Shown here in pieces: positions 31,052 to 62,636 of a DNA stretch of 64,000 nt. The position numbers and the translations under genes are program-made. The DNA is taken from assembly GCF_014701235.1 (NCBI RefSeq), contig NZ_AP022873.1, forward strand, positions 1,550,001-1,614,000, in the 5' to 3' direction. The notes under the pieces are model-generated. The model did not search any database. It had not been told where the DNA came from and worked only from the letters and a program-made list of their open reading frames with translations. This DNA comes from Dissulfurispira thermophila (GTDB taxonomy: Bacteria > Nitrospirota > Thermodesulfovibrionia > Thermodesulfovibrionales > Dissulfurispiraceae). Position 1 is the stretch's first letter. The number at the start of each line of letters is the position of its first letter.

Positions 31052-32224
31052 ATGAATAAATTCAGGTTTCTTACTTCAGGCGAATCTCATGGCAAAGGTC
31101 TAATAGGAATCCTCGAGGGCATTCCATCAGGGCTTTCTTTATCATCAGAAGACATTGATAAAGAACTCAAAAGGAGGCAAATGGGATATGGACGTGGCGG
31201 AAGGATGAAGATCGAAAGCGACCACGCAGAAATAATATCAGGCATAAGATGGGGAAAAACTATAGGCTCTCCAATATCACTCATCATAGAAAACAAAGAC
31301 TGGAAAAATTGGCAGCAAGGCATGTCATCAGAAAGTAATTACGAAGGCTCTATCCCTCCTGTAACAAGACCGAGGCCGGGTCATGCAGACCTTGCAGGTG
31401 CTTTAAAATATGGTCACAGAGATATTAGAAATATCCTTGAGCGGTCAAGTGCAAGGGAAACAGCCATGCGCGTTGCTATTGGTGCTATAGCTAAAAAATT
31501 CCTATCAGAATTTGGGATAAATATCGGAAGCTATGTAATACAGATAGGAAACTTGAAGATTTCAGATCCCAGATCTCAGATCTCAGATTTCAGAGAAATC
31601 TTCAAAAAAACAGAAGCATCTCCTGTGAGATGCCCTGATGAAGATGCATCAAAAAAAATGATGGAATTAATAGACACTGCTGCAAATAATGGAGATACAC
31701 TTGGAGGGGTATTCGAAGTGATTGCAACCGGTATACCTTTGGGTCTTGGAAGCCATATACAATGGGATAAAAGGCTCGATGGAAGGCTTGCACAGGCATT
31801 GATGGGAATTCAGGCAATAAAAGGAGTAGAGATCGGAAAAGGTTTTGAAATGGCTGAAAGAACTGGTTCAGAGGTTATGGATGAGATATTTTACAATGGT
31901 TCACGGTTTTACAGAGAGACAAATCATGCAGGCGGGATCGAGGGTGGCATAACAAATGGAATGCCTGTGGTTATCAGGGCAGCAATGAAACCTATCCCTA
32001 CTCTGAGAAAACCACTGCAATCCGTGGATATAATAACAAAAAAGCCTTTTGAGGCTGCCTATGAGCGCTCAGATACATGCGCAGTCCCCGCCGCTGCTGT
32101 TATCGGTGAGGCAATGACAGCAATAGTAATCGCCGATGCCTTCCTCGAAAAATTTGGCGGTGACAGCATGGAAGAAACAAAGAGGAATTTCGATGCTTAT
32201 GCAGAATATTTAAAGAGTTTTTAG
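31052..32224 (+). CDS. aroC: Chorismate synthase
   Basis: The 390-residue FMN-dependent enzyme converts EPSP to chorismate. It shows FRFLTSGESHGKGLIGILEGIPSG at the N-terminus, RPRPGHADLAGALKYGHRDIRNILERSSARETAMRVA in the middle, and AGGIEGGITNGMPVVIRAAMKPI with the C-terminal RSDTCAVPAAAVIGEAM. The ATG at 31052 gives the family start; further upstream codons are not family-like. A segment KISDPRSQISDFREI (about residues 170-185) is an in-frame insertion made of TCAGATCTCAGAT-type repeats. Alanine dehydrogenase follows after three bases. Confidence 0.94.
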   Translation: MNKFRFLTSGESHGKGLIGILEGIPSGLSLSSEDIDKELKRRQMGYGRGGRMKIESDHAEIISGIRWGKTIGSPISLIIENKDWKNWQQGMSSESNYEGSIPPVTRPRPGHADLAGALKYGHRDIRNILERSSARETAMRVAIGAIAKKFLSEFGINIGSYVIQIGNLKISDPRSQISDFREIFKKTEASPVRCPDEDASKKMMELIDTAANNGDTLGGVFEVIATGIPLGLGSHIQWDKRLDGRLAQALMGIQAIKGVEIGKGFEMAERTGSEVMDEIFYNGSRFYRETNHAGGIEGGITNGMPVVIRAAMKPIPTLRKPLQSVDIITKKPFEAAYERSDTCAVPAAAVIGEAMTAIVIADAFLEKFGGDSMEETKRNFDAYAEYLKSF

Positions 32225-33332: not shown

Positions 33333-35348
33333 ATGAGCGATTTGTTTTTAAATATCATTAGAAAGAGCATAGCGGCTATATTAATTCTGTTTCCAATAAG
33401 CTCACTTGCAGAGGACTTTTCCAGTTACCTATTAAATGGAAAAAATAGCCTCAATAAAAACGACTATGAAAATGCAATATCACAACTAAGCACAGCCTAT
33501 GAAAAACTGCCTATATTAGGCGACTATGCGCTTTTTTGGAGGGCAAAGGCATATGAAGACATGGGCAATATTGATAAAGCAATTACTGATCTAAGAATGA
33601 TTAAGGAGAGATTCAAAGATTCACCGCTTATTAAAAATGTCCGCATAAAAGAGATAGAACTCATTCAGAAAAATTCAGAAGACAGAAATCAGAAATCAGA
33701 AGTCAGAAAATTATTAGAAGAATTCATCAAAGATTATCCATCTGAATTGAGCATCAAGTATGCATATGCTTCATTACTCAAAGAAAATGGCGAAATAGAA
33801 AAGGCAAAAAAGATATTCAAAGAGATATATGTATTAGTATCGCCACTTTCTAAAAATGCACTACATGAACTTTCTAATTCTGATATTACAGCAGAAGACC
33901 TCATAAAAAAAGGAGAAAACCTCAATAGGGCATGGATGTTTAATGAAACAGAAAAATACATGAGACAAGCACTGCAAAAGATAATAGAGGATAAAAACCA
34001 AGAGACATCATCGATTAGAAATCAAATACTCGAAAAGCTTGCATATTCTATTTTCAGACAGAAACGATATAAAGAGGCAGCAGAAATTTATAAAGAGTTA
34101 AACAATCGCTACTGGAGGGCAAGGTCAGTATTTAGAGCCGGCGATATGGAGACATTTGAGTCAGAATTACAGGAACTAATAAAGACAAGAGACAAAAGGG
34201 TTGCATCTATATTAATTGCATATGGTTCAAAACAAAGAAGGGATGGCAATACTGAGAAGGCACTGGAAATATTCAACAACACATTAGCAAGATACCCATC
34301 TGCAAAAGAAGATGCATTGTGGGCAAAGGGTTGGACATATTACCTTTCAGGTGATTATAAAAATGCATTAGAGATATTTTCACAACTTCATCAAACATAT
34401 GGAGACTCAAAATATCTGTACTGGAAAAATAAGTGTTTGGCATATATGGGTAATGAGCCATCAGTTATGAACTATACCGTTCCTCACAGAGACTATTATG
34501 GATTTCTGTCCATGCTAAAAAACTCACCAGATAAAAATGTTATTACAAGGAGCAATAGTGACAAAGTAATCCATAAAGACGAGATTCCTCGCTCTGCTGG
34601 GAATGACAGATTGGATCAGTCAGCCTCTGCCCATTACATTTCACATGCATATGAGAGGGTTGACATCCTGATAAGGCTCGGACTGAACAACGAGGCTATT
34701 TTAGAATTAAAGCACATGGCAAAGAAAAATCCTGATCATAATAGGCTCATCTATATAAGTTCTCAACTAAAAAAACTTGGCATTTATAATATCTCTGTTA
34801 ATCTCATAACAAAAATTCAATACAATGAAAAAATCCATGATTTGTTTTATCCAATGGCATTTCAACAAGATGTAGAAGAAGCTGCAAGAAAAAACAACAT
34901 TGATCCACTTTTAATAATGTCTATTATGCGAGAGGAGTCAAGATTTAACATCAATGCACTCTCTATTGCAGGTGCAGTCGGATTAATGCAACTCATGCCT
35001 TCTACTGCCAATAAATATGACAGGCATGTAAAAATTACTCTAAAAAATACAAATCAACTCTATGAACCAAAAACAAACATTCTCATTGGTTCATATTACT
35101 TAAAGCATCTTATAAAAAATTTCAAATCCCTTCCTCTTGCAATTGCAGCATACAATGCTGGTGAGGAGATTGTAAGGGAATGGCTGAAAAAGGGCAGTTA
35201 TAATACAGTAGATGAGTTCATAGAAGACATACCTTACGATGAGACAAGAAACTATGTAAAGAGGGTTTTAACTACCTATTTTGAATATATGAGAACAAGT
35301 CGTGATGTAGATATAGCCTTGACCAAGAAATATATCGGGGATCTATAA
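33333..35348 (+). CDS. slt: Soluble lytic murein transglycosylase (Slt70-like)
   Basis: The 671-residue periplasmic enzyme cleaves peptidoglycan. It has an N-terminal signal segment (about residues 8-25), a long helical TPR-like superhelix, and a C-terminal SLT domain with the catalytic Glu in IMREESRFNINALS (about residue 535), then GAVGLMQLMPSTA and AIAAYNAGEEIVREWL. Two in-frame insertions of dispersed repeats are visible: SEDRNQKSEVRK near residue 115, and VITRSNSDKVIHKDE followed by IPRSAGND near 405-425, the latter from the same repeat family as the pilT gap. The ATG at 33333 lies just past the ald stop. Confidence 0.9.
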   Translation: MSDLFLNIIRKSIAAILILFPISSLAEDFSSYLLNGKNSLNKNDYENAISQLSTAYEKLPILGDYALFWRAKAYEDMGNIDKAITDLRMIKERFKDSPLIKNVRIKEIELIQKNSEDRNQKSEVRKLLEEFIKDYPSELSIKYAYASLLKENGEIEKAKKIFKEIYVLVSPLSKNALHELSNSDITAEDLIKKGENLNRAWMFNETEKYMRQALQKIIEDKNQETSSIRNQILEKLAYSIFRQKRYKEAAEIYKELNNRYWRARSVFRAGDMETFESELQELIKTRDKRVASILIAYGSKQRRDGNTEKALEIFNNTLARYPSAKEDALWAKGWTYYLSGDYKNALEIFSQLHQTYGDSKYLYWKNKCLAYMGNEPSVMNYTVPHRDYYGFLSMLKNSPDKNVITRSNSDKVIHKDEIPRSAGNDRLDQSASAHYISHAYERVDILIRLGLNNEAILELKHMAKKNPDHNRLIYISSQLKKLGIYNISVNLITKIQYNEKIHDLFYPMAFQQDVEEAARKNNIDPLLIMSIMREESRFNINALSIAGAVGLMQLMPSTANKYDRHVKITLKNTNQLYEPKTNILIGSYYLKHLIKNFKSLPLAIAAYNAGEEIVREWLKKGSYNTVDEFIEDIPYDETRNYVKRVLTTYFEYMRTSRDVDIALTKKYIGDL

Positions 35349-35406
35349 GTTTATTTTTTATATAAAAATCGTGTATTATCTACTGGTTTAACGCCATCGG
35401 CGATCT

Positions 35407-35436
35407 AAAATTTAAAGTTTAAAATTCAAAGTTTGA
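35407..35436. repeat. AT-rich tandem-like repeat before the zap genes
   Basis: The 126 bases between slt and the ZapB-like gene contain AAAATTTAAAGTTTAAAATTCAAAG-type repeats, followed by an AGGAGGAGG ribosome-binding site. No RNA gene or hairpin terminator could be recognised. Confidence 0.5.
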
Positions 35437-56970: not shown

Positions 56971-58680
56971 CTATACGATTTTTATTCTCGTTACTTCTCT
57001 GCCACTGGCATCCACCACATGAACAGCACATGCCATGCATGGATCAAATGAATGAACAGTCCTCAATATCTCAACAGGCTTGTTAGGGTCTGCAACAGGT
57101 GTACCGATTAGTGATGCTTCATATGGTCCCCTCTGCCCCTTTGCATCTCTTGGCGAACCATTCCATGTGCTTGGAACAACACACTGGTAATTTGCAATTT
57201 TTTTATCTTTTATTAACACCCAGTGTCCGAGTGCTCCTCTTGGTGCCTCATGGAAACCATATCCTTTGGCTTCCTTAGGCCATGAAGAAGGATCCCATTT
57301 ATCCCCATTGTGTATGCGGTAATCCCCTTTTTTCATGTTCATAGCAAGCTGTTCAATCCACACTGACATCATCTCTGCTGTAACAAGTGTTTCTATGCCT
57401 CTTGCTGCAACGCGTCCGAGTGTCGAGAATAATGCCTCTGCACCCACTCCAAGTTTTTTCAGCACACTGTCCACAACCTCTTTAACTCTCTTATGCCCTG
57501 ATGCATAAGCAACGAGCATCCTTGCAAGCGGTCCGACTTCCATAGGCATATCTTCATATCTCGGTGCCTTGAGCCAACTATATTTCTTATTTGTATCAAG
57601 GAACTCATAAGGAGGTTTGGGGCCTGTGTATTTGAAGTTTGTCTCTCCTTCCCACGGATGTTTTGCTTTTGCATCCCCTTCTTTGTACTCATACCATGAA
57701 TGCGTTACATACTCCATAATCTTTGTATGGTCAACTGGATGAACCTTGCTCAAATCCTTGTTCTTTATAATCCCTCTCGGCAGCCACAGATTTTTTGTAT
57801 CAATTTCATTGTCATTCGGAAATTCTCCACAGGCAAAGAAGTTACCCACCCCTCCTCCATAATTTGCCCACTCCTTATAAAAAGAGGCAACAGCAAGGAG
57901 GTCTGGAATATATACCTTCTCGACAAACTCCAATGCCTTTTTTGCTAAACCTGACATGAATGCAATACTGTCTGCATTTAAGGCATTCTGGCTGTTGGGG
58001 TCAACAGGTATAGACATGCCGCCCACGAGGTATGTCTGTGCATGAGGATTCTTTGCGCCAAGCAATGCCTGAATCCTTATTACATCTCTCTGCCATTCAA
58101 GAGCCTCGAGATAGTGGGCTACTGCCATAAGATTTGCTTCCGGAGGCAGTTTGTATGCTGGATGCCCCCAATATGCATTAGCAAATGGACCAAGTTGTCC
58201 GCTTTCAACAAGCGTCTTTACTCTATTCTGAATCCCTTTAAAATAAGACGCTGATGATTTAGGCCAGTCTGAGATAGATTGTGCAAGCGATGATGTCTTT
58301 GAAGGGTCTGCTTTAAGAGCGCTCACAATATCAACCCAGTCAAGTGCATGCAGATGATAAAAATGTATTACATGGTCCTGAACATACTGTATGCCAGTAA
58401 TAAGATTTCTGATTATTCGCGCATTATCAGGTATTATGATTCCAAGTGCATTTTCTACAGCTCTCACGGAGCTGGTTGCATGAACAGTTGTTCAAACACC
58501 TCATATTCGCTGGGTAAATGCCCATGCATCTCTTGGATCTCTGCCTTTAAGTATAATCTCTATGCCTCTAAACATTGTGCTGGATGACCATGCATCCACC
58601 ACCTTACCACCCTCTACCTGGGCCTCAATTCTGAGATGTCCCTCAATCCTTGTAATTGGATCAATTGCTATCTTTGCCAT
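56971..58680 (-). CDS. hyaB: [NiFe] hydrogenase large subunit, predicted double selenoprotein (U60, U63)
   Basis: A 569-residue frame starts at ATG 58680, with AAGGAGG upstream, 12 bases after the small-subunit stop. It opens [22 protein letters not shown] (conserved RIEGH) and continues to the N-terminal Ni-binding motif, where two in-frame TGA codons (58503-58501 and 58494-58492) replace both cysteines: [21 protein letters not shown]. The C-terminal motif DPCMACAVH (C548, C551) is normal, with a 15-residue tail for the protease. Everything else is intact. Sec at both TGAs makes a UGVU/CMAC active site. A hairpin lies 24 and 33 bases after the TGAs. Standard callers would truncate the protein at a GTG (58467) and lose the N-terminus. 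Pseudogene decay is the main alternative. Confidence 0.85.
58458..58474 (-). promoter_or_regulatory. Candidate bacterial SECIS hairpin in hydrogenase mRNA
   Basis: CAGCTC (58474-58469) pairs perfectly with GAGCTG (58463-58458) around the loop CGTGA, whose second base is G, as in the bSECIS consensus. TGCA at each side can extend the stem beyond an internal loop. The loop G is 24 bases from the second TGA and 33 from the first, both inside the known range (about 16-37), so one element could serve both codons. A smaller stem TGAAC/GTTCA overlaps the second TGA. Confidence 0.6.
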
Positions 58681-58692
58681 TCCTTGCCTCCT

Positions 58693-59786: not shown

Positions 59787-60008
59787 GTGGGTTTCACGAA
59801 ATTCGTAATCCATTGATTTTATGATTTGTTTGACATAGCTTTTTTAGGCTTGCCCTCCTATCAAGATTTTCATTTATTTTCAATTAGTTATATGTCTAAA
59901 AATCTCTCTTTCACCTCATTTTTAGCAGTTTACCCCTCACCCTATCCTACCCCTCACCCTATCCCTCTCCCCAAAAGGGAGAGGGAATTTTTTAATTTTG
60001 TGAAACCC
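59787..60008. mobile_element. MITE-like insertion in the hydrogenase operon leader
   Basis: Inverted ends GGGTTTCACGAAATT (59789-59803) and AATTTTGTGAAACCC (59994-60008) match at 14 of 15 positions. A perfect 12-bp direct repeat TAATAAAAAATT flanks the element at 59775-59786 and 60009-60020, as expected for a target duplication. The interior holds tandem CCCCTCACCCTATCC units and a hairpin CCCTCTCCCC/AAAAGGGAGAGGG, but no gene. Without it the promoter would lie about 30 bases from the ribosome-binding site; with it the leader is about 270 bases. Confidence 0.75.
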
Positions 60009-60098: not shown

Positions 60099-62636
60099 TC
60101 ATTCTGCTAATTGCTTTGCTTTAACCATCTCTCTTGCAATATATGCCTGACCAAGTGATATGCCAGCGTCATTACATGGAACCTTTTCATTTGTATGGAC
60201 ATTGAATCCTGAAGCTAAAAGCTGACTAATTGTGCCATCTAAGAGATATTCGTTCTGAAAGACACCTCCGCTCAGTGCAACATTTCTTATCCTGTATTTT
60301 TTACTTATACGGTCAACAGTTTCTGTTATCACATCAATCAGTGTATTATGAAATTTAATAACAATGAGACCCTTATCCTTTTTGAGTTTTATATCTTTAA
60401 TTATCTCTAAAATCATCTCCGAAAAATCTACAATCATAGGTGAATAGGTATTTGTATCCAATATTTCATATGGATATTTCTCACTGTGAACCGTGAACCG
60501 TAAACTATGAACCATGTTTTCCAATGCTATTGCAGCTTCACCTTCAAAGGTGTTTTCATCACACAACCCTGTAATTGCAGATACTGCATCAAACAACCTG
60601 CCAGCACCTGAAGAAAGAGGTGAGAACTGTTTATTGTCGATGAGTTTTAATATATTTTCAATTCTTTCTCTGCTATATCTGTCAACAAACCCGATGGAAT
60701 CAAGGCAATCCCAAATAAGAGAAGCATCAAATCTCAAATTTTGAATTTTAAACTTTGGATTTTGAATCGCCGAAGACATTTCTGACATTTTGACACTTTG
60801 CGATATATAACTTATTGCTGTCCTCCAGCATTCCCTTATAGCCCTATCACTGCCCGGCAGCGGAATATATTTAAAATGAGCAACTCTTTCAAATCCTTTT
60901 AAATCACAAATAAGAAATTCTCCACCCCAGAGATTTCCATCTGTCCCATATCCAGTGCCATCAAATGCAACCCCTATGACCTTATCCTTCAAGCCCTTTT
61001 CAGCCATAACAGATGCTATATGTGCATAATGGTGCTGAATGCCATAAAAAACAGGCAATAGGTGATGGGTGATGGGTGACGAGTATTGAAAATTTAAGAC
61101 TTGGGATTTGTGATTTGTTTGAGATTTGAAATTTGAGATTTGAGATTGCAACAATGCCCATTGTGTGGATAAATAATTAGGATGCAGGTCATAGGCAATA
61201 GCAACAGGATTTGCTCTGTAAACCTGTTTAAGATTATCAAGGGTTTCTTCGAAAAATTTTAAAGTCTCAAGGTTTTCCATATCTCCAATATGCTGGCTTA
61301 CAATGGCATAACTGCCTCTTGTGATAGTAAATGTGTTTTTAATATCAGCACCACAGCCTAAAACATCAGGTCCGTCATCATTTAGCTTAATCGGCTCCGG
61401 AGTATAACCTCTGGCACGGCGGATAAAAGATATTTTGTGCCTACCGCCTATCACCTTGACAACAGAGTCATCCACCCTCATAAAAATATCCCTATTGTGC
61501 ATGACAAAGGCATCTGCAATGTCTGAAAGTTTTGATATTGCCTCATCATTGCTTATGACTACGGGCTCTTCAGATAAATTACCGCTTGTCATGACAAGGG
61601 CATCAAAATGAGCAGTAAACAGTGAACGGTGAACAGTGAATTGATTGGGAGGATAATAAAACAAAAGATAATGTAAAGGTGTATAAGGAAGCATAAAGCC
61701 GAGATATTTGTTATTTGGAGCAATCTCCTCAGGAAGCCTCTTACCTATTCTGTATCTACCTATTGCCTCTTGTCCATTGCCTCTTTTTTTGAGCAACACT
61801 ATTGGTCTGCGTCTATCTGTAAGTAATTTTTCTTCTATGTCAGAAATCTCACAGAATTGCCTGATGGCTTCTATGTCAGGAGACATAAGAGCAAATGGCT
61901 TATTGCTACGTCTTTTTTTTCCCCTCAATCTCTTAACAGCATCTTCATTTTCAGCATCACAACAGAGATGAAAACCTCCAAGTCCTTTGATAGCAACAAT
62001 TCCACCATGTTTTAATAATTCTATTGCTGCTTCTATCGGATTTTCTTTTTTATTGACTGTGAACTGTGAACTGTGAGGCGTAAATTCTAATTTTGGCCCG
62101 CACTCATGACATGCATTGGGTTGGGCATGAAATCTGCGGCTGCGTGGGTCATTATATTCAGAGAGGCATTCATGACACATATTAAACACTGACATCGTTG
62201 TATTTGGTCTATCATATGGAACCCGTTGTGTTATAGAATATCGAGGCCCGCAGTTTGTGCAATTTATAAATGGATAAAGATAGCGCCTGTCAGAAGGATC
62301 GAGTAGTTCTTTCAGACAGTCATTACAGATAGAAACATCAGGAGAGATAAGCGTGAATCTCCCTGTATCAATACTCTCGACAATTATGAAATCATCATAG
62401 CCATTAAAAGGCAGTTTTTCTGTTTCGATGCTTTCTATTTTTCCAATCGGAGGGCACTTATCCCGGATGAATATGATAAATTCATTAAGAGACTCTCCCT
62501 CGACATCTATGATGACGCCATCAGATGTATTTTTTACATAACCCTTGAGATTAAGACTTTTTGCAAGATTATAAATAAAGGGCCTGAAACCCACGCCCTG
62601 AACAATACCTTTAATTGATATGAGTATGCGATTCAT
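60099..62636 (-). CDS. hypF: Carbamoyltransferase HypF
   Basis: The 845-residue enzyme makes carbamoyl groups that become the CN ligands of [NiFe] hydrogenase. It has an acylphosphatase domain (VQGVGFRPFIYNLAKSLNL), two zinc-finger motifs (CNDCLKELL, INCTNCGPRYS; CHECLSEY, NACHECGPK), a YrdC-like domain (GGIVAIKGLGGFHLCCDA), and a Kae1-like domain (AFDGTGYGTDGNLWGGE, ALSGGVFQNEYLL). At least five in-frame insertions of intergenic-type repeats are scattered between and within domains, such as HSSQFTVN, NQFTVHRSLFTAH, QSQISNFKSQTNHKSQ, NPKFKIQNLRF and SLRFTVHSEKY. It is upstream of the hydrogenase operon on the same strand. Confidence 0.93.
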   Translation of the reverse strand: MNRILISIKGIVQGVGFRPFIYNLAKSLNLKGYVKNTSDGVIIDVEGESLNEFIIFIRDKCPPIGKIESIETEKLPFNGYDDFIIVESIDTGRFTLISPDVSICNDCLKELLDPSDRRYLYPFINCTNCGPRYSITQRVPYDRPNTTMSVFNMCHECLSEYNDPRSRRFHAQPNACHECGPKLEFTPHSSQFTVNKKENPIEAAIELLKHGGIVAIKGLGGFHLCCDAENEDAVKRLRGKKRRSNKPFALMSPDIEAIRQFCEISDIEEKLLTDRRRPIVLLKKRGNGQEAIGRYRIGKRLPEEIAPNNKYLGFMLPYTPLHYLLFYYPPNQFTVHRSLFTAHFDALVMTSGNLSEEPVVISNDEAISKLSDIADAFVMHNRDIFMRVDDSVVKVIGGRHKISFIRRARGYTPEPIKLNDDGPDVLGCGADIKNTFTITRGSYAIVSQHIGDMENLETLKFFEETLDNLKQVYRANPVAIAYDLHPNYLSTQWALLQSQISNFKSQTNHKSQVLNFQYSSPITHHLLPVFYGIQHHYAHIASVMAEKGLKDKVIGVAFDGTGYGTDGNLWGGEFLICDLKGFERVAHFKYIPLPGSDRAIRECWRTAISYISQSVKMSEMSSAIQNPKFKIQNLRFDASLIWDCLDSIGFVDRYSRERIENILKLIDNKQFSPLSSGAGRLFDAVSAITGLCDENTFEGEAAIALENMVHSLRFTVHSEKYPYEILDTNTYSPMIVDFSEMILEIIKDIKLKKDKGLIVIKFHNTLIDVITETVDRISKKYRIRNVALSGGVFQNEYLLDGTISQLLASGFNVHTNEKVPCNDAGISLGQAYIAREMVKAKQLAE

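Follow-up and report, generated by a model that had tools for sequence, protein, structure and literature searches.

Several segments of the hypF gene of Dissulfurispira thermophila look like translated repeats, and the question raised by this locus is whether they are insertions or native loops and, if insertions, where they came from and what keeps them in frame. The gene lies in the window analysed here (the whole stretch of 64,000 bp, positions 1550001-1614000 of a single-contig genome of 2.37 Mb) and was compared with relatives from the Nitrospirota, order Thermodesulfovibrionales. Its product is up to 80% identical to the HypF of relatives. A profile search matches it to all five HypF Pfam families and an AlphaFold2 model, built on an alignment of 66 sequences, has a pLDDT of 90.5 and a pTM of 0.91: on the family matches and the pLDDT, hypF was judged to be intact.

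Six in-frame stretches of hypF (A to F, of which B is weaker) consist of degenerate tandem heptamers (Table 1). All five segments quoted in a sequence-only reading of the gene are present, and all five prove to be translations of period-7 arrays. At a score of at least 10 the gene holds six arrays (D counted as two), whereas codon-shuffled HypF genes hold 0.6 per 96 genes; the arrays are thus well beyond chance.

Table 1. Heptamer arrays of hypF and related features, in coordinates of the window.
Feature	Position	Strand	Words	Peptide	Segment quoted in the sequence-only reading	Remarks
hypF	60099..62636	-				Carbamoyltransferase for [NiFe] hydrogenase maturation; 845 aa; array host
Array F	60483..60516	-	GTGAACC (sense GGTTCAC)	VHSLRFTVHS	LRFTVHSEK
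Array E	60727..60775	-	AATTTTG	SSAIQNPKFKIQNLRF	PKFKIQNLRF (60727-60767)
Array D	61050..61147	-	GGTGATG then ATTTGAG	QSQISNFKSQTNHKSQVLNFQYSSPITHHLLPV	SNFKSQTNHKSQ	Words back to back
Array C	61609..61640	-	TGAACAG	NQFTVHRSLFTAH	SLFTAH
Array B (weaker)	61740..61785	-	Degenerate GGCAATA-type units	QEAIGRYRIGK
Array A	62056..62076	-	ACTGTGA	HSSQFTVN	HSSQFTVN	Three perfect units
In-frame heptamer array	31557..31594	+	AGATTTCAGATCCC...			In 432-aa ORF
In-frame heptamer array	33676..33708	+	CAGAAGA/CAGAAAT			In 675-aa ORF
Related copy of site E element	35389..35436	+	CGCCATCGGCGATC then TAAAATT array			Outside hypF

A total of 105 HypF proteins from relatives were aligned, and the length of each slot was taken as the number of residues between conserved anchors. 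The array segments are not conserved among these proteins, in which other words occupy the sites. All six sites are shorter in 3VTH, the solved HypF that matches best. Conservation of the segments in distant HypF proteins would have refuted the sequence-only reading, and it was not seen. Slots B, D, E and F exceed those of array-free relatives (site E has 36 residues here and 14 in most relatives; site F has 30, against 23 in most array-free relatives), while at site C congeners carry other words within one common slot length, 3 residues below the slot here. Site A measures 19 residues with or without an array and in several congeners holds AATTTCA instead, which makes array A a replacement of the same length with no net insertion. 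Four or five of the six arrays therefore lengthen HypF. The claim of at least five in-frame insertions stands for B, D, E and F, and for C with its three added residues, but not for A. Nor were the repeats all freshly absorbed: the array D composite is common to this genome, L017 and L019, and the array F word is also present in congeners L017 and L026, so that D and F are older than this species.

It is scarcely credible, given this alignment, that the segments are native loops that merely look repetitive. Site A shows what the native-loop reading would expect, the loop there being equally long and of similar alternating pattern in many array-free relatives, but at sites B to F that reading failed, and it is opposed by the lack of conservation, by a period of seven at the level of DNA, by words and phase that change and by the absence of the segments from the solved protein. 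The pLDDT of the AlphaFold2 model drops at residues 281-300, 331-340, 501-530, 611-640 and 711-720 – the array loops – although sparse alignment at the arrays may account for part of the drop. The bias towards loops is clear: HypF arrays occupy surface loops.

The same loops are used repeatedly, and with different words. A set of 96 distinct HypF genes yields 97 arrays, where codon-shuffled versions yield 0.6, and almost every array falls within one of eight loops that together make up 180 of the 845 positions. Words at site A include ACTGTGA, AATTTCA, GTTCAGA, ATTCAAA, GTTAAAA, CAGTCAT and GTTCGGA, the last from a Chloroflexi genome, and arrays in the same HypF loops extend to further families and phyla (L104, L105, L110). 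The loop pattern recurs in CbiA (18 arrays) and likewise in FliOP and NifEN, whose arrays (14 and 24) far exceed the 0.1 expected for each. A role for arrays in creating the FliO-FliP and NifE-NifN fusions was rejected, since the fusions are present in relatives without arrays. In 231 ortholog pairs between this genome and five close relatives, 13 of the 17 position-matched arrays had a different word, and a clear array in one genome often faces a similar, apparently decayed one in the other (SRSLFTVYDSLKTM versus SRSLFTVHCSLKTM). Array loops also contain, in frame, dispersed repeats of the PPLSPPLxKGG and HAEFVSASYETLKQVQGD types (HypF of L013, L019 and L026; CbiA of L165). A cobalamin biosynthesis cluster (L130; G000:2280001-2300000) is unusually rich, with 13 in-frame arrays in 20 kb, among them a 99-bp GATGGAA array in the interdomain linker of CbiA.

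The change of word at equal length at sites A and C points to overwriting, whether through ectopic exchange or through concerted change, although re-insertion may account for it instead. That a distinct machinery copies arrays between loci and overwrites them at constant length, so that slots are rewritten from a cross-phylum vocabulary and this becomes a main source of new loop sequence in these lineages, seems to us unlikely. Less likely still is that much of the turnover reflects, in place of new insertion, homologous recombination between related species in which hypF segments take old arrays with them. The states of site D (shared by this genome, L017 and L019 on the one hand, and by L002, L026 and L013 on the other) disagree with the masked HypF tree, and such recombination may thus contribute; but it leaves unexplained both the species-specific core at site E (see below) and the arrays found in the same loops in other families and phyla.

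The counts of words, strand and frame that had been proposed as a check were made on 864 kb (the window plus 40 stretches, about 40% of the genome) and showed an excess of period 7 and a bias towards stop-free strands. Exact-lag runs returned 81 period-7 arrays, compared to 0 in Markov shuffles; 28 arrays have period 8 and 16 period 6, and counts at the other short periods lie close to background. With the threshold lowered slightly, 50 of 549 ORFs of at least 200 aa carry one or more arrays (about 9%), and 72 arrays lie within such ORFs while 18 are clearly intergenic. The sequence-only reading was right that the hypF words are repeats, but the label of low-complexity, intergenic-type sequence does not fit a specific period-7 class most of whose detected members lie in genes; likewise hypF, with six arrays, does lead, but only as the extreme of the 50 sampled ORFs with arrays. 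Array load is uneven among genomes: per 100 kb it is 65 in congener G001, 30 in G015 and about 13 in both this genome and G002. A dozen relatives have none in samples of 40 kb (the entries for G035 and G054 are runs of N), and one 50-kb stretch of E. coli K-12 contains no period-7 array.

Arrays within genes bear the mark of a filter. Genic arrays have on average 2.42 of three frames open on the coding strand and 1.08 on the other; over all six frames, 3.5 are open in genic arrays and 1.67 in intergenic ones. Array density per 100 kb is 10.9 in genes and 31.4 between them, 2.9 times higher, a ratio that is approximate because ORFs were called by length; an open frame also partly defined the genic arrays. 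Selection for frame had been proposed, and a filter of strand and frame was indeed found, but the strand bias is adequately explained by purifying selection that keeps only harmless insertions: positive selection for frame is not needed.

Comparisons between loci bear on how arrays reach new sites. Among 117 arrays there are 148 pairs with identical words, where random genomic 7-mers would give 14 (maximum 22 in 20 simulations), and 27% of words recur in the HypF arrays of other species (5% expected). Of the 148 genomes of the phylum that were compared, 33 contain one particular word repeated four times, the reversed control being nearly empty. In hypF, array E runs into a 13-base core, TGAATCGCCGAAG, at 60763-60775. 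This core is not itself tandem and is usually flanked by AATCTT-type arrays; this genome has 21 exact copies, one of them in hypF, and congeners G001-G003 have 0. The hypF copy is in frame at site E, where congeners have other sequence. The related copy elsewhere in the window is 83% identical over 53 bp to 60722-60773, and copies match beyond the array. At least 10 bp of flank is shared with another locus by 81 of 127 arrays, but of the same number of random windows (127) 35 gave some match as well. Only array E, of the six in hypF, has the core attached, and for arrays A and F a comparison with 40% of the genome gave no significant further copy. Together, the sharing of words and the species-specific core indicate dispersal by copying, and thus a spreading process of the kind that the sequence-only reading had supposed.

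An account in which nothing moves is nevertheless worth weighing: each array would be born locally, when a 7-mer present by chance expands through slippage or is duplicated in tandem, and the words held in common would be those that expand easily. Units are less alike the further apart they stand along an array (similarity 0.82, 0.78, 0.72, 0.63), as such growth would produce. In many bacteria no long simple repeat is commoner than the heptamer, for which an explanation based on the footprint of the polymerase has been proposed (PMC4692102, PMC4679880). Site B resembles the local expansion of a unit also found in G002, where AGAGGCAATAGACA stands twice in tandem at the equivalent place, and the word-sharing test is compatible with some words expanding more readily than others, TCA/TGA being twice as common as expected. 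However, slippage cannot make the non-tandem core, which is dispersed and present in hypF; composite arrays of several words, the shared flanks and the ten-fold excess of identical words also speak against purely local birth, which we consider doubtful.

Folding of the hypF arrays is no better than that of shuffled sequences, and a hairpin form was rejected for them. Array hairpins do occur elsewhere in this genome, and other copies of the site E core form larger composite elements, some of which have inverted ends that fold strongly; where neighbouring arrays have matching words, seven pairs are inverted and none is direct. In composite intergenic elements of about 130-190 bp (L127:9140-9300, L127:10650-10800, L129:9550-9740, L145:10170-10360 and L150:8690-8840), several heptamer words are joined to an octamer array (CCCCTTCA) and to the CGCCGAAGGCG core, and some of the elements have inverted ends. 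As regards MITEs, which are defined by terminal inverted repeats, a target-site duplication and a cognate transposase, one of these elements has inverted CGTCTTCGGYGATTCAA arms (L150:8724-8840), and no target duplication or transposase was identified. An ORF for N-acetylmuramoyl-L-alanine amidase contains a nested hairpin (L138:11605-11805), with heptamer arms outside and octamer arms inside, whose DNA fold z-score is -7.5.

A search among candidate causes and carriers found no copying enzyme. MutL does not track array load: the protein is found in array-rich and array-poor genomes alike, missing only from the incomplete G005, and loss of mismatch repair was thereby ruled out as the cause. The presence of a reverse transcriptase (RVT_1) does not follow array load, nor does that of a Y1/REP-type transposase (Y1_Tnp). 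A viral carrier was rejected, a 27-bp array word being found in only 21 stretches of a viral collection and the core in 2.

We consider it probable that degenerate heptamer arrays form a population spread over the whole genome, to which the in-frame arrays of hypF belong, and that its members are copied, filtered and turned over. A limited vocabulary of words would build this population, and arrays would be copied to new places, at times together with a second word or with a core that is not repetitive. Such copying is well supported for the site E element; for the other arrays we infer it. Once in place, arrays probably grow, shrink and homogenise through slippage and unequal exchange, as the fall in unit similarity with distance suggests. 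Within genes, copies would persist only on three conditions: a coding strand free of stops, a net length divisible by three and a tolerant surface loop as the site. Since few loops would qualify, the same ones are reoccupied and words turn over between species. Old arrays would lose their pattern through point mutation and come to look like ordinary protein sequence. The account requires no benefit to HypF. As a guess, the copying step itself may be a form of break repair, or of template switching, for which short matches act as primers.

Arrays could instead be functional, either as selected linkers or as phase-variation switches of HypF and hence of the hydrogenases. Seven is not a multiple of three, so gain or loss of a unit shifts the frame; site A has three perfect units, and the same loops are used again and again. 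Against this, perfect arrays of at least three units number only 12 in 864 kb, most arrays being degenerate, and slippage should therefore be slow; words are not conserved at a site; and the host genes examined are ordinary ones (biosynthetic, cell-wall, flagellar) in a genome where so sizeable a fraction of ORFs has arrays. A function of this kind is very unlikely.

Beside hypF, the gene for the large subunit of a [NiFe] hydrogenase (56971-58692, minus strand) is interrupted by exactly two TGA codons. They stand where the N-terminal pair of cysteines that bind the metal would be (RI-TGA-GV-TGA-TT). The DPCMAC motif at the C-terminus is normal, and with TGA read through the entire frame matches Pfam NiFeSe_Hases. 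This may be a hydrogenase with two N-terminal selenocysteines; a tRNA-Sec was not found in the scanned part of the genome. Between the small subunit gene and hypF lies a perfect two-copy direct repeat of 17 bp, TACCCCTCACCCTATCC (59931-59964).

If the preferred account of a copied and filtered population is true, non-triplet tandem repeats, usually deemed harmful in genes, would be a major and continuing supply of in-frame insertions to conserved enzymes throughout the lineage. The arrays would then amount to a natural experiment on loops that tolerate arbitrary sequence, and annotators and structure predictors should be cautious over repeat-coded peptides such as SQFTVHS and FKIQNSK. Why the unit has seven bases and how the repeats spread would be testable by comparing array-rich with array-free sister genomes.

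Among known systems, the small dispersed repeats (SDR) of Nostoc are often embedded in heptameric repeats. They are alike in having a short, hairpin-capable core dispersed with flanking heptamers, as is CGCCGAAGGCG here, and differ in belonging to another host phylum; the species-specific core with its flanking arrays fits the SDR trait of a recently dispersed core within heptamer arrays. Cyanobacterial STRR sequences occur in RNase P RNA and in the tRNA-Leu intron. RNase P RNA (RF00010) was not found in this genome (G000) and most relatives (it is present in G032, G042 and G044), and a protein-only RNase P would therefore be expected. Heptamer repeats are over-represented in bacteria and have been studied in Nostoc and Xanthomonas, mostly between genes and as G-rich GGGNATC types (PMC4692102). 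The cyanobacterial and Xanthomonas repeats share with the present arrays tandem 7-base units, a patchy occurrence among relatives, variable numbers of units and several words per genome. Here, however, many words are found, largely in frame in conserved enzymes and turning over at fixed loops, and genic arrays outnumber clearly intergenic ones, whereas STRR-type repeats would be expected mainly between genes.

TAACTGA repeats of Beggiatoaceae, Cyanobacteria and Bacteroidetes are likewise seven-base direct repeats, patchy across phyla; their reverse orientation is open in all frames, and stops limit their orientation in genes (PMC4679880). They differ in comprising one word, mostly near start codons, with copies in ORFs mainly at protein ends, and related heptamers are rarely repeated there (PMC4679880). 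Rickettsia palindromic elements are also dispersed and lie in frame within metabolic genes that are unrelated to one another, whose proteins tolerate them, but they are palindromic, about 150 bp long (100-150) and encode conserved peptides, while the hypF arrays are tandem, non-folding and 21-98 bp long (PMC10969869). In Geobacter metallireducens a single heptamer family, GGGACCG, is described as four-unit elements within genes (PMC2700814); it differs in its one conserved word, its four units and a regulatory interpretation, and the passages that describe it report no turnover of loops between species (PMC2700814). Heptamer repeats on the one hand, and mobile repeats inserted in frame on the other, are already known; a literature search of partial coverage did not find the combination seen here described, in which heptamers of many words lie in the interior of conserved enzymes and turn over at fixed loops.
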